Below, one piece after another: positions 37,974 to 44,317 of a DNA stretch of 64,000 nucleotides. The DNA is taken from positions 1 to 64,000 of the forward strand of contig JAMCWD010000061.1 in assembly GCA_023475345.1 (NCBI GenBank). Reading direction: 5' to 3'. The DNA is from Chloroflexota bacterium. Lineage in GTDB: Bacteria > Vulcanimicrobiota > JAMCWD01. The notes below the pieces were generated by a model. That model was not told the DNA's origin, did not search any database, and saw only the letters and a list, made by a program, of their open reading frames with translations. The stretch's first letter is position 1. Each line of letters starts with the position of its first letter. The position numbers were made by a program, and so were the translations under genes.

Positions 37974-38609
37974 TTATATTGCTTTTCGGCCTCGATTTTT
38001 TACCTTTCTATTATCTTCGAAATTCGATTCCTTGAGGTATCTTTGATATTGTTTTTCGGCCTGTTCCTTGGTTTTAGGGAACCTGCTTTTTTCTATATCA
38101 GCAGCCAGTTTTTTGCCTGTATCTCCCGGAGTAAAAACCTTTATAGCCGACTCCATCGCAGGGGAGAAAGAATCCACTATCTTTACAAAAAACCCGTTTC
38201 CCTGGCTGAGCCTTGTTTCCGGCATGACTCCCGGTATGGAAGCTATCAGCATCATTATCATCCAGATTATGATAAACGACTTGATAATTCCGAAAAATCC
38301 CCCGCCGTATGTTACCAGGCCGGGCGGCATTTTGATCTTGAAAGTATCATTTACATAAGAGCCGATGAGGAAGATTATTACGAGAACAGGCACGGCTACC
38401 AGCAAAAAACCTGCCCATTCGGCCATGGCGGAAGACCATTCGAACTGTTTCACGAATAGCCCGGCGATAGGTCCTTTTGCAAAGCTGCCGATACAAAAGG
38501 CTCCGATTATGCAGAGAATGTCGAAAAATTCCACTATGATCCCCCGCCGGAAAGAGAAAAAAACCAGCACTCCGAAAATTACGATAAGCAGAAGATCCAG
38601 CCAGTTCAT
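37974..38609 (-). CDS. cvpA: CvpA family membrane protein
   Basis: A 211-aa inner-membrane protein with four hydrophobic segments (about 3-20, 28-48, 64-84, 101-121), starting MNWLDLLLIVIFGVLVFFSFRRG as in CvpA proteins, followed by a soluble, charged tail of about 80 residues. CvpA is linked to envelope homeostasis and colicin V export in E. coli; its activity is unknown. GGGAGGGTT precedes the ATG. It starts 2 nt after the pheT stop. Confidence 0.85.
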   Translation of the reverse strand: MNWLDLLLIVIFGVLVFFSFRRGIIVEFFDILCIIGAFCIGSFAKGPIAGLFVKQFEWSSAMAEWAGFLLVAVPVLVIIFLIGSYVNDTFKIKMPPGLVTYGGGFFGIIKSFIIIWMIMMLIASIPGVMPETRLSQGNGFFVKIVDSFSPAMESAIKVFTPGDTGKKLAADIEKSRFPKTKEQAEKQYQRYLKESNFEDNRKVKNRGRKAI

Positions 38610-38610
38610 G

Positions 38611-41004
38611 TTAACCCTCCCTTAATCTTGCATCGAATTTGCCGGAGAGATTTTTAACTATATTGTTTATCGAGCGGCCTACTTCTTCATCGGTAAGAGT
38701 GCGGTCCGGCGCCGAAAATACCAGCCTGAACGCCAAGCTTTTCTTTTCGTCGGGGATCTGTTTTCCCCTGTATTGATCGAAACATTTGACAGACCTGAGA
38801 AGCTCTCCTCCCGAACTTTCGATCTCTTTCGTGATATTTGAACAGAGCACGCCTTCATCTATGATAAATGCAAGGTCGCGCTCGATGACCGGGAACCGTG
38901 GAACCGGCTCGTAATATTTCTTCCTGGCAAGCCGTCTTGCGTGTCCCAGGTCAACCGCTCCGAAAAATACCGGGACATTTATATCAACCTTCTGGCAGAC
39001 TTCCGGGTGAACTCTCCCCAGGCAGCCCAGGCTTTTTCTGCCCAGGAGCACCTCTGCCGAAATGCCGGGATGGAAAAAGGGCAGTTGGACAGGCTCGAAA
39101 TCGACCTCCATTCCAAGTTCCTGGAAAACCAGTTCAAATCGCCCTTTCAGGGTGAAGAAATCTACATCATTCCCGGAAGAGGCCATGATTATTCCCATGA
39201 TGTCCTTTTCCCATGGAAAAGAATCCGGCTCGGCTTCGAGGTAAATTTTCGATATTTCGAAAAATTTGATGCATCCCCATGACGGCGTCATATTCGACTT
39301 CAGGGCCTTCATCATCCCCGGCAAAAGCGAGTTCCTGGTGTATGACTGCTCTTCGACGAGCGGGTTCAGCACCTTCATGCTCCCTTCACGCGGGATGTCG
39401 AATGTCTCGAAAACCTGCTCCGGGTGGAGCGAAGGAGTTATAACCTCTACAACGCCTGCGGCGCTCATAAGGTCGGCTATATGTTCCCGGAACTCCTCCT
39501 CTTCCCCCTGTGTCCCGATCAGCGTAACCCCGCCCGGCAGGGTTGTCGGTATCTTATCATAGCCGATACAACGGGCCACCTCTTCCACAAGGTCTTCTTC
39601 CCTGATGATATCAGGCCGGAAGCTTGGTATATCTACACTGAGGATTTCCTGTCCGGCTTTTGAAGTTTTCTCTTTGACTTTCATCCCCAGGCTGGAAAGG
39701 ATATTGATACACTGGTTTTTGCCTGTTGTTATCCCGAGGATAGCCGATGCTCTTTCCGGGCGGAAATCTATGGTCAATGTTTTCGGGGGTTCGGCTGCGG
39801 AGTCAACCGCGCCTTTTGCTATCCTGCCTCCCATCGATGCGAAAAGGGAGCAGGCCCGGTCTGCGGCGGCGGGCAGGCCGTAATAATCCAGCCCTTTTTC
39901 GAACCGCCTGGATGATTCGGACCTCATCCCCAGGTTTACGGATGTCCGCCTGATGGATGCAGGCTGGAAACAGGCTATCTCCAGGAGGATTTTTGTCGTA
40001 TCGTTATTAACCTCGGAATTCAAGCCGCCCATTACGCCTGCGAGCGCTACAGGGCCTTCCTCGTCAGCGATGACGAGCATTTCGGGGGCGAGCGGGATTT
40101 TGCTCTCGTCGATGGTTATCATCTCTTCCCCTTTTTTCGCCGGGCGGATATTTATCGCCTCTCCTTTCAGGAGAGCGTAATCGAATGCGTGGAACGGCTG
40201 GCCGTATTCCAGCATTACATAGTTGGTAACATCGACGATATTGTTGATGCTCCTTACTCCCGCAAGCCGGAGCCTGCTCGACATCCATTCGGGAGACGGG
40301 CCGATTTTCAGGCCGGATATTATCCTGGCCATGTACCGGGAGCAGAGATCGAAGTCCTTTATTCTGACTTTGATATAATCCGATGCGGGCCTTTCGTCTT
40401 CCGGGAACGTCGTGCCGGGGAGTTTCAGGGGCTTGCCCAGCATCGACGCGGTTTCCCTTGCAACGCCGATTATCGAGAGCATGTCGGGCCTGTTGGCGAA
40501 TGTTTCAAGGAGCAGCATATCGTCATTGAGGAGATATTTTTCAACGAGGTCGGCTCCCAGGGGCAGGTCGGTCTCCGGCGTCAGGACACCTTCCCTCTGA
40601 TCCAGCGGGAGGTCTTTACCGTCAAGTCCCAGTTCGGCGGCGGAGCACAGCATACCTGACGATTCGACTCCCCTGATTTTGGACTTCTTAATTACAAGGC
40701 CGCCGGCAAGGCGGGCGCCTTCCAGGGCAACGGGGACTTTATCGCCTGTTTTTACATTGGGCGCGCCGGTTATAAGATCCAGTATCTCGCCGTCTTTGAC
40801 CTCGACTTTACAGAGCCGGAGCCGGTCGGCATTGGGGTGCTTTTCCATACTGCGTATCAGCCCCAGTACAACGCCTGAGATCTTATCTTTGGGACGCTTT
40901 ATTTCTTCCACCATGACCCCGCGGGCGGTAAGCCGCTCTGCAAGCTCATCCGTCGGGAGATCGAATTCTACGTAATCTTTCAGCCATGAAACGGGTACGA
41001 GCAC
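38611..41004 (-). CDS. pheT: Phenylalanyl-tRNA synthetase beta subunit
   Basis: The 797-aa beta subunit. It has the N-terminal tRNA-binding (OB) domain (VVLGLIRSMEKHPNADRLRLCKV), the B3/B4 editing region, the B5 domain, a catalytic-like core and the C-terminal anticodon-binding domain (VFSAPDRTLTDEEV). Length is as in other bacteria. The GTG start has AGGAGG 5 nt upstream. It follows pheS after about 10 nt and forms the alpha2-beta2 enzyme with it. Confidence 0.97.
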   Translation of the reverse strand: MLVPVSWLKDYVEFDLPTDELAERLTARGVMVEEIKRPKDKISGVVLGLIRSMEKHPNADRLRLCKVEVKDGEILDLITGAPNVKTGDKVPVALEGARLAGGLVIKKSKIRGVESSGMLCSAAELGLDGKDLPLDQREGVLTPETDLPLGADLVEKYLLNDDMLLLETFANRPDMLSIIGVARETASMLGKPLKLPGTTFPEDERPASDYIKVRIKDFDLCSRYMARIISGLKIGPSPEWMSSRLRLAGVRSINNIVDVTNYVMLEYGQPFHAFDYALLKGEAINIRPAKKGEEMITIDESKIPLAPEMLVIADEEGPVALAGVMGGLNSEVNNDTTKILLEIACFQPASIRRTSVNLGMRSESSRRFEKGLDYYGLPAAADRACSLFASMGGRIAKGAVDSAAEPPKTLTIDFRPERASAILGITTGKNQCINILSSLGMKVKEKTSKAGQEILSVDIPSFRPDIIREEDLVEEVARCIGYDKIPTTLPGGVTLIGTQGEEEEFREHIADLMSAAGVVEVITPSLHPEQVFETFDIPREGSMKVLNPLVEEQSYTRNSLLPGMMKALKSNMTPSWGCIKFFEISKIYLEAEPDSFPWEKDIMGIIMASSGNDVDFFTLKGRFELVFQELGMEVDFEPVQLPFFHPGISAEVLLGRKSLGCLGRVHPEVCQKVDINVPVFFGAVDLGHARRLARKKYYEPVPRFPVIERDLAFIIDEGVLCSNITKEIESSGGELLRSVKCFDQYRGKQIPDEKKSLAFRLVFSAPDRTLTDEEVGRSINNIVKNLSGKFDARLREG

Positions 41005-41014
41005 TTTATCCTCC

Positions 41015-42055
41015 TCAGAACTGTTTCAAAAATCTCGAATCGTTTTCGTAAAAAAGCCTTATGTCGTCTATGCCGTTGGCAAGCATGGCGATTCTTTCGA
41101 CGCCTATGCCGAAAGCAAAGCCCGTGTATTTTTCCGGGTCGTACACCGGCTTTTCCCGCAGGCCGTCGGCCCACTTATAAACCGCCGGGTTGATCATGCC
41201 CGCACCCAGGATCTCCAGCCAGCCGCTCCCGCCACAACTGCGGCAGCCCTTCCCTTTACAGACGAAGCAGTCGACGCATATCTCCGCCGACGGTTCCGTA
41301 AACGGGAAATAGCTGGGGATGAATTTTATCCTCCGCTCTTTCCCGAACATCTCGCGGGCGAAATTCAGGAGCACGCCTTTCAGGTCGCCGAAAGTAACGC
41401 CTTCATCGACCATGAAGCCTTCCACCTGGTTGAAGATCCAGAAGTGGGAAGCGTCCACCGCATCCCGGCGGAAACATTTGCCGATGGATATTACTCTCAA
41501 AGGAGGCTCTTCTTTTTCCATGACCCGGACCTGGACGGGGGAGGTGTGGCTGCGCAAAAGCAGATCCCTGCCGAGGTAAAACGAGTCCCACATGTCCCTG
41601 GAAGCGTGTTGGGCCGGGATGTTTAAGGCTTCGAAGTTGTAGTATTCCGTCTCTACTTCCGGGCCTTCCTTTACCGAGAAGCCCATGCCTTCGAATATTT
41701 CCTTCATGCGGCGCAAAGTCCGGCGCAAAGGATGGATGCGGCCCGTTTCCGGGATCTGGCCGGGCATCGTAACATCGACTCTTTCCTCCATAAGCCGGCT
41801 GGAAAGTGTTTCCTGCTTCAGCCGGGCTTCCTTTTCATCTATGAGGGAAATCAGATGCTGCTTGATGTCGTTTGACATCTTGCCCAGGCGGGGGCGGTCT
41901 TCATCGGGGACGCTGCTGAGACCGCGCAGGATAAGGGTAAGCTCGCCCTTCCTGCCGACGACAGCAACTTTCAGTTCCTGTAATAAATCGAGATCGTCAA
42001 TCTCCCGAATTTTTTGTTCGGTATCCTCTTTTAACTTATTCAGTTGGTCTTCCAT
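41015..42055 (-). CDS. pheS: Phenylalanyl-tRNA synthetase alpha subunit
   Basis: The 346-aa catalytic alpha subunit of a class II synthetase. Motif 2-like FRRDAVDASHFWIFNQVEGFMVD and motif 3 GFAFGIGVERIAML are clear. The cysteine-bearing insert CVDCFVCKGKGCRSCGGSGWLEILGAG is typical of many bacterial PheS. The longer frame (to 42130) is rejected because ATG 42055 has AAAGGAT just upstream and begins with the usual coiled-coil arm (MEDQLNKLKEDTEQKIREI). A terminator separates pheS from the mini-genes upstream. No T-box element was found in its leader. Confidence 0.97.
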   Translation of the reverse strand: MEDQLNKLKEDTEQKIREIDDLDLLQELKVAVVGRKGELTLILRGLSSVPDEDRPRLGKMSNDIKQHLISLIDEKEARLKQETLSSRLMEERVDVTMPGQIPETGRIHPLRRTLRRMKEIFEGMGFSVKEGPEVETEYYNFEALNIPAQHASRDMWDSFYLGRDLLLRSHTSPVQVRVMEKEEPPLRVISIGKCFRRDAVDASHFWIFNQVEGFMVDEGVTFGDLKGVLLNFAREMFGKERRIKFIPSYFPFTEPSAEICVDCFVCKGKGCRSCGGSGWLEILGAGMINPAVYKWADGLREKPVYDPEKYTGFAFGIGVERIAMLANGIDDIRLFYENDSRFLKQF

Positions 42056-42128: not shown

Positions 42129-42157
42129 AAAAGAAAAGCCGGGGCTTAAACCCCGGC
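42129..42157 (-). terminator. Intrinsic terminator between YqzL-like genes and pheS
   Basis: On the minus strand CCGGGG-type stem GCCGGGG (42157-42151) pairs with CCCCGGC (42144-42138) around a 6-nt loop, followed by TTTTCTTTT. It lies 33 nt after the second YqzL-like stop and 74 nt before pheS. It could also act as an attenuator for pheS read-through. Confidence 0.82.
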
Positions 42158-42189
42158 CTTAGATCGAGTAAATTGTCAGGTGGTTCGGC

Positions 42190-42276
42190 TTATTCCTCGT
42201 TCTCTTTGTAAAGGAGATAAGCGTTCAGAGATCCTGTGGTCTCGAAGACCTCCCAGTAGAATTCAGGTCCCATCAT
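42190..42276 (-). CDS. YqzL-like mini-protein (second copy, 28 aa)
   Basis: A 28-codon frame on the minus strand: MMGPEFYWEVFETTGSLNAY then LLYKENEE. It matches its upstream neighbour through (F)(Y/F)W(x)(V/I)F(x)(T)TG(S)(x)(x)AYLLY, the core of the YqzL family of very small proteins in Gram-positive bacteria. GAGGTGAG is 11 nt upstream. Two frames with the same 20-residue pattern in the same orientation are not expected by chance. The function of YqzL is unknown. Confidence 0.78.
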   Translation of the reverse strand: MMGPEFYWEVFETTGSLNAYLLYKENEE

Positions 42277-42292
42277 TTTTCTTCTACTCACC

Positions 42293-42397
42293 TCACTCGT
42301 TTGAAGTTTCTTTCAACTTCAAGTTTCTGTACAGGAGGTATGCCGAGATTGAGCCGGTTTCCTTGAAGATTTGCCAGAATAACTCCGTTGCTATCAT
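42293..42397 (-). CDS. YqzL-like mini-protein (first copy, 34 aa)
   Basis: A 34-codon frame on the minus strand, reading MIATELFWQIFKETGSISAY then LLYRNLKLKETSNE. It shares the FW-x-x-F-x-x-TG-S-x-x-AYLLY core with the next gene and with the YqzL family (usually about 40-50 aa). GGTGAG is 7 nt before ATG 42397, and a near-consensus promoter lies just upstream. The stop lies within the ribosome site of the second copy. Aromatic and amphipathic, it may bind a protein partner or RNA; nothing firm can be said. Confidence 0.8.
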   Translation of the reverse strand: MIATELFWQIFKETGSISAYLLYRNLKLKETSNE

Positions 42398-42427
42398 TCG
42401 GCTGCTCACCCCCCTTGTAACGCCATC

Positions 42428-42456
42428 AGTATAGCACATAGTTACTATGCTGACAA
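42428..42456 (-). promoter_or_regulatory. Strong housekeeping promoter of the YqzL-like genes with palindromic spacer
   Basis: On the minus strand TTGTCA (42456-42451) and TATACT (42433-42428) are separated by exactly 17 nt, with TGC just before the -10 (extended -10). The start point would be near 42421, giving a leader of about 24 nt. The spacer holds CATAGT-T-ACTATG on the plus strand, a perfect 6-bp inverted repeat placed where a repressor would block polymerase. Confidence 0.75.
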
Positions 42457-42559: not shown

Positions 42560-44317
42560 CTAATTTCTAGAACCCAGCCTATCAAGGTCAAAACCATTCA
42601 GCGGATCATCTTTCCAACCAGAAGTAAAATATCTTGTAAAATGCGAATGAGTCCTTTTGAAATTTTCAATAAATTCTTTTTTATTTCTAAAGCCCACTGC
42701 TTTGACTATATTTTCTAAAAATCTTTGGCTCTCAGCCTTCACTATGTAACTGGGCGCCCCCTTCAAATAAACACAACTTCGTGGGCACCATACGTTCCAC
42801 AAATTTTCTAGGTTCATCTCATGACATATTGATCGCATAAATAGAAAATAATCGGCCTCTAAAAAATCTTTATGCTTGATTAGCCGAGATAACTCACCAT
42901 TAGTGAATCGGTCCTCGATAAAATCAGCCATAACACTTAATCGCCTTAGATTCAACCTCTTATTTCTGATCTCGTCTAAAGAACGAATATATTCACTGAT
43001 AGATACATGTGAGACATAATTACTTCCGCGTTCTCGTTCGACAAAAAGATCCTCGTTAAGGAGTTCTCCAATAATATCCCATCTATTATTTTTGATTAAC
43101 GATGCGATAAATGATACAAACATTTCATATACCAAGAATTTATAACCATCAAAATCAATAGTTTGGTATTTTCCAGAAAAACCATCAGGCAAACTATATA
43201 GTTTATAAGCTTTTCCAAAGAACTCATAAATAGGGACAATAGCCTCTAAATTGCCATATTCGCTTGCTAATAGGGCAGCTTCTATAAAACGACATGAGAT
43301 AGTTATTCCCCTATTGATTTGTTCTACTATAGAATCGTCACGTTCATCATATTTCGAAAAATCTGGTCTTATTTGCTCAAGTTCAACATTTATATTATCA
43401 AGATATTGCGAATATAACTGTGCAACTGGTTCTCTTGAGGACGATAAAGCATATTTCAATTCCGGCACAGCTGGTCCAGAGCCAGTTGGAGGGGCTAAGC
43501 TTTTCAGCCTTTCTAATAATTGCAAATAATCATTTATGAATTGGCTGGCTCCGGTGCATGGGATATAAGTATAATCCTTGGCTTTTAATAATTCTTCAAT
43601 ATCACCTTCCGGGGGGCTTGGGTTTACCCAAAATAAAGGATAATAATTATAACTGCGATTTTCAAATAACTTTTGTATCCCCACATCGCGTCCTGAATAA
43701 CCTAAGACTATGACACCATGATCACTCAAAACTTTTATCAATTCTTCTTCCATTAACGGAGATAAATTCTCTAAATCCTTGGGAGTGTTTCTTAATGCTC
43801 CGTGTCCCAAATTTCCGTGAGGCTTGTAAATTCTGGCGGATTTACAATGTATCAATGGCACTGAGTTTTTTAAATCTTCATCTGTTGAAATCACCTGAGG
43901 CTCCAGTCCTATTTCTTCTAATGCTTTTTCAATATAATGATCAAAATTAGTGGTTATAATCGACCTGATTATCCCCCTCCTGACTAATTCAGCGATTCCT
44001 TTATGAGCTTGCCCCAATTTATAATTGTCTATATATTTCTTAAGAAAATCTTGTTGGTCTGGATACTTTGGATAAATTTTTTCTACCAGTTCGGAATATT
44101 GCATTTGTGAATAATCGCTTTTTATGAACCAATCTTCTAAATTTATACTTGGATCTACTGCATCATTATCAGCAACATATAGCAGGCTTGCTGTTTTCAT
44201 CATTAAATCCCAGGCGGTAGGAATACCAGCATCTTTTGAAACACCCGCTCCTGCGAAAAGGACATACTTCTTTTCTCCTGGCAAAGCACTTGCAACTAAT
44301 TTGACAAGTGGGTTCAA
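42560..44317 (-). CDS. SIR2-domain protein, probable anti-phage NADase effector
   Basis: A 585-aa protein. Residues about 15-270 are a SIR2 domain: GAGVSKDAGIP (23-33), TTNFDHYIE (N124, D126), catalytic-type His167 in KPHGN, and GYSGRD (206-211). No zinc-binding CxxC of protein deacetylases, as in SIR2 NAD-consuming defence proteins. The C-terminal 300 residues are helical and unrecognised; they would be the sensor. The TTG start has GGAGGAAT upstream. Base composition is clearly richer in A+T than every neighbour, consistent with recent transfer. It stands alone between housekeeping genes. Defence role is inferred from family and context. Confidence 0.85.
   Translation of the reverse strand: MNPLVKLVASALPGEKKYVLFAGAGVSKDAGIPTAWDLMMKTASLLYVADNDAVDPSINLEDWFIKSDYSQMQYSELVEKIYPKYPDQQDFLKKYIDNYKLGQAHKGIAELVRRGIIRSIITTNFDHYIEKALEEIGLEPQVISTDEDLKNSVPLIHCKSARIYKPHGNLGHGALRNTPKDLENLSPLMEEELIKVLSDHGVIVLGYSGRDVGIQKLFENRSYNYYPLFWVNPSPPEGDIEELLKAKDYTYIPCTGASQFINDYLQLLERLKSLAPPTGSGPAVPELKYALSSSREPVAQLYSQYLDNINVELEQIRPDFSKYDERDDSIVEQINRGITISCRFIEAALLASEYGNLEAIVPIYEFFGKAYKLYSLPDGFSGKYQTIDFDGYKFLVYEMFVSFIASLIKNNRWDIIGELLNEDLFVERERGSNYVSHVSISEYIRSLDEIRNKRLNLRRLSVMADFIEDRFTNGELSRLIKHKDFLEADYFLFMRSICHEMNLENLWNVWCPRSCVYLKGAPSYIVKAESQRFLENIVKAVGFRNKKEFIENFKRTHSHFTRYFTSGWKDDPLNGFDLDRLGSRN

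Follow-up and report, generated by a model that had tools for sequence, protein, structure and literature searches.

Directly ahead of pheST in the window, the whole 64,000-nt stretch of DNA analysed, lie two tandem copies of yqzL (A and B) with a promoter and a terminator of their own. YqzL is a widespread, uncharacterised family of proteins of about 30-50 residues. Judged from the sequence, copies A and B are genuine YqzL-family protein genes, given their Pfam scores, the fact that they are the only two matches to the family in the genome, and a low dN/dS ratio. The features of the locus, in the order of transcription, are:

42428..42456, minus strand: sigma-70 promoter TTGTCA-17-TATACT with an extended TG; the spacer contains CATAGTAACTATG
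42397 (ATG) to 42293 (stop), minus strand: yqzL copy A, 34 aa, MIATELFWQIFKETGSISAYLLYRNLKLKETSNE
42276 (ATG) to 42190 (stop), minus strand: yqzL copy B, 28 aa, MMGPEFYWEVFETTGSLNAYLLYKENEE
42135..42160, minus strand: intrinsic terminator between the pair and pheS; 11-bp stem and 4-nt loop, then TCTTTT
41015..42055, minus strand: pheS, phenylalanyl-tRNA synthetase alpha subunit of the bacterial type (Pfam tRNA-synt_2d, E 2e-92)
38611..41004, minus strand: pheT, phenylalanyl-tRNA synthetase beta subunit, the open frame next after pheS (tblastn matches follow pheS in relatives)
37974..38609, minus strand: cvpA-like gene after pheT (Pfam Colicin_V)

Against the Pfam YqzL profile (PF14006, cut-off 27 bits), copy A scores 31.7 bits and copy B 34.1 bits, the latter in a 33-aa form that uses a possible alternative GTG start at 42291. 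Purifying selection on the YqzL core of the phylum is evident from a dN/dS of 0.054 (dS 0.51, dN 0.028) over 215 close pairs, which are not independent of one another (Nei-Gojobori, 19-codon core, pairs with 3-15% base differences); the YqzL set from the phylum holds 126 copies out of 123 sequences. Copies A and B lack close relatives of their own, and their mismatches fall mostly at codon position 3. The two tandem YqzL-like mini-genes proposed by the earlier note thus stand on both peptide conservation and substitution rates. Each copy has its own type of sequence, xELFWxxF..TGS..AYxxYxxLK for A and xFYWE[VI]F..TGx..AYxLYKE for B. An SD-like GGGGGGTG precedes copy A, and GAGGTGAG precedes copy B at a rather long spacing from its start. 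In an AlphaFold model (pLDDT 90.6), copy A folds as a hairpin of two helices; no sequence relative of YqzL was found among solved structures.

The same pair, in the order A-B and directly before pheST, recurs within the phylum in two further lineages at family level (G001, locus L032; G013, locus L036), where the earlier note had proposed to look for it in relatives; in G004 a contig end falls inside a yqzL copy. A sample of 120 Bacillota genomes showed no tandem pair. Copies in like positions are more alike than copies in unlike ones, with BLOSUM means of ~71 (A-A) and ~79 (B-B) vs ~65 (A-B), a paralogy comparison based on ~19 aligned residues. The PheS tree places the tandem lineages (f1, f2 and f6) in one group with f5 and f3, at a support of 84/87 that is not strong, and this grouping suggests a single old duplication followed by later losses as the simplest history of the pair. 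In the sister genus of G013, copy B would have been lost.

Across the phylum, YqzL is present in 117 of 149 genomes, most commonly as a single yqzL ahead of pheS, and its neighbours are a SpoU/MRM3-like methylase, rplT, infC and pheST. At locus L040, pheST is missing and a cvpA-like gene (Pfam Colicin_V) directly follows yqzL. G017 has the arrangement spoU-yqzL-cvpA, as though pheST had been excised from the order seen in the window. Bacterial pheS was not found in nine genomes of the phylum (G003, G006, G010, G014, G016, G017, G020, G026 and G028); the sole PheS-like protein found in them is longer and diverged, with ~38-41% identity in the core (complete frames of 515-612 aa). In these nine, the bacterial pheST seems to have been replaced, perhaps by an archaeal-type enzyme. 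Seven of them still contain a YqzL match, and this persistence after the apparent replacement of pheST shows that yqzL is more than a leader peptide.

In Bacillota, the sample of 120 genomes contains two types of yqzL locus, era-yqzL-recO(-glyQ) and spoU-yqzL-pheST, and their profiles assign 38 of 39 members to the right type in a jackknife. Like copies A and B, the Bacillus-type YqzL (era-yqzL-recO-glyQ) belongs to PF14006, has the core W..F..TG...AYLLY, is small and is encoded near class II synthetase genes. However, a long acidic tail is typical of the recO-linked proteins, while A and B carry no such tail and are placed before pheST. The pheST-linked proteins (spoU-yqzL-T-box-pheST, e.g. 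L069 and L054) share with A and B both the place before pheST and the short form. Both copies in the window, whose neighbours are pheS and pheT, score best with the pheST-type profile and lower with the recO-type profile, the margins being small (+3.0 bits for A and +3.8 bits for B); copy B of L032 is ambiguous between the subtypes. The idea that copy B is a recO-type YqzL moved beside A was rejected, as the profiles speak against it. Bacillota genomes such as G151 (L054, L244) have two YqzL loci with separable profiles, the first at era-recO-glyQ and the second ahead of pheST. The window and the Bacillota pheST-linked loci also have in common a terminator, plain or conditional, between yqzL and pheS. 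At five Bacillota loci, yqzL stands directly before an Rfam T-box (RF00230) that is followed by pheST, whereas the window has a plain hairpin and a duplicated yqzL; neither the window nor any of 19 phylum loci gave a T-box match.

The promoter of the pair has 10 of 12 consensus matches plus the extended TG, although 1.3 promoter-like sites are expected by chance in this stretch, so that the single site alone is at chance level. Its conservation is more telling: an extended -10 (pattern TGNTA[TC]ANT, scanned up to 120 nt upstream of yqzL) is found at 96 of 118 loci in the phylum vs 4 of 1963 random windows. The -35 and -10 elements in the window are separated by a spacer with the palindrome CATAGT-A-ACTATG. 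The view that this palindrome is an operator through which some regulator holds the pair repressed draws on that position, but the other tandem or sister loci (L032, L036 and L156) lack the palindrome in their promoters, perfect 6+1+6 palindromes number 34 in the 64-kb window, and the fold is weak (z -0.6). An operator here is most improbable and, as the palindrome is not conserved, the 'apparent repression' of the earlier note is unsupported. The note was right about the paired genes and about their own promoter and terminator; it missed the arrangement across the phylum and the T-box parallel in Bacillota.

Two further features were seen around yqzL promoters. In family f8 (e.g. L004, L006 and L133), these promoters carry a conserved element, AAAAGTCAAGACTACC-N6-AAAAGTCGCATGnTATACT, with a core matched by 52 leaders; it consists of a direct repeat at 22 bp plus an AGTC-AA-GACT dyad and is possibly an activator site. 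Just upstream of the yqzL promoter in the window lies a SIR2_2 gene (42560-44317, minus strand) with a GC content of 36% vs 53-55% in its neighbours; it matches the PADLOC candidate defence family PDC-S65 (E 3e-65) and is probably an acquired defence gene.

The hairpin that closes the pair is strong (MFE -24.4 kcal/mol for a 70-nt stretch, z -2.9), and 88 of 101 phylum leaders have a terminator-like counterpart between yqzL and pheS, vs 0.7% of dinucleotide shuffles. Among 12 stretches upstream of pheS loci with no yqzL match in front, read by eye, no comparable layout was noted. The hairpin also follows yqzL at 10 of 14 loci unlinked to pheS, and may therefore be part of the yqzL unit itself. 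From the end of its stem to the pheS start, the median distance is 31 nt, with 20 nt or less in 27 of 82 cases, some start calls and distances being uncertain because many relatives have no clear Shine-Dalgarno sequence at pheS. Many f8 loci (e.g. L004, L006 and L133) have a pheS start close behind the hairpin and no clear Shine-Dalgarno sequence for it; the starts may have been miscalled, or pheS may be initiated in an unusual way.

Genes, selection, linkage and the conservation of promoter and terminator are computed results, and on balance they favour, with somewhat better than even confidence, a promoter-yqzL-A-yqzL-B-terminator unit before pheST in which most transcripts terminate, part of them read through, and the proteins serve translation. 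The locus would then be a bicistronic small-protein transcription unit. Copies A and B would be old paralogs within the pheST-linked YqzL branch that arose by a single duplication in the ancestor of one clade of the phylum and have stayed in the order A-B, with each peptide forming a hairpin of an aromatic helix, a TGS turn and a second helix, as predicted for copy A. The terminator would probably stop most transcripts, leaving a short mRNA from which small proteins would be made in abundance, and a fraction would read on into pheST. Such read-through is favoured because many relatives have neither room for a promoter nor a matching one between hairpin and pheS. The most likely role of the proteins is in the translation apparatus, either in ribosome maturation or in aminoacylation; it is the gene neighbourhood (infC, rplT, the SpoU-type methylase and pheST; era, recO and glyQ) that hints at a small protein linked to translation.

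A possible, though less than probable, alternative is that the yqzL unit and pheST are independent, the hairpin being simply the end of yqzL, pheST having its own promoter, and the linkage being inherited synteny. Hairpins at the unlinked loci and the survival of yqzL without pheST fit this alternative, as does the AT-rich stretch of 79 nt between hairpin and pheS in the window, in which a weak pheS promoter could fit and escape the scan. However, an extended -10 of the yqzL kind (TGnTATACT type) lies before yqzL in 81 of 94 pheS-linked leaders and in 0 of 94 within the 120 nt before pheS, about a third of the measured hairpins end 20 nt or less from the pheS start, and the linkage is kept across the phylum and seen again in Bacillota.

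The arrangement also recalls the classical attenuator of gamma-proteobacterial pheST, with its short frame and terminator (PMC1262725). The frames could accordingly be read as leader peptides of a pheM-type attenuator, in which stalling at Phe codons would lead to an antiterminator and to transcription of pheST. A short frame and a terminator do stand directly before pheST here, as in pheM-pheST, and each frame holds two or three Phe codons. However, only the terminator has a counterpart: its 5' arm shows no excess pairing with the spacer (z +0.35), nor with the coding sequence of yqzL (z -0.18, se 0.12), where synonymously recoded sequences compete for the arm equally well. Copies linked to pheS hold as much Phe as unlinked ones (2.4 vs 2.2), with a longest Phe run of 1 or 2. 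Unlike in the pheM system, the YqzL peptide is itself conserved, is under purifying selection over its entire length and also occurs away from pheST. With no antiterminator pairing and no enrichment in Phe codons, classical attenuation of this kind is very unlikely. Slightly less remote, but still improbable, is an accessory role for pheST-linked YqzL, in which the small protein would either bind phenylalanyl-tRNA synthetase or act on the operon by controlling how much transcription passes the hairpin. Duplication in this lineage would have made A and B specialised partners, and the recO-glyQ subtype would play the corresponding part for glycyl-tRNA synthetase, which is the other class II enzyme with an alpha2-beta2 structure.

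YqzL is a known family, but neither the pairing of its genes nor a pheST-linked subtype with a terminator seems to have been described in the literature searched, and the novelty claimed earlier for the pair holds within that scope. No study of YqzL was found there, the name turning up in a single paper on an unrelated subject, and text matches to PF14006 looked like Plasmodium gene identifiers. Frames as short as yqzL are easily overlooked in annotation. The linkage to pheST in two phyla, the two subtypes each near a class II synthetase, the terminator before pheS and the persistence of yqzL after loss of pheST together provide a testable lead on the function of YqzL, and the tandem copies A and B are natural paralogs for a test of division of labour.
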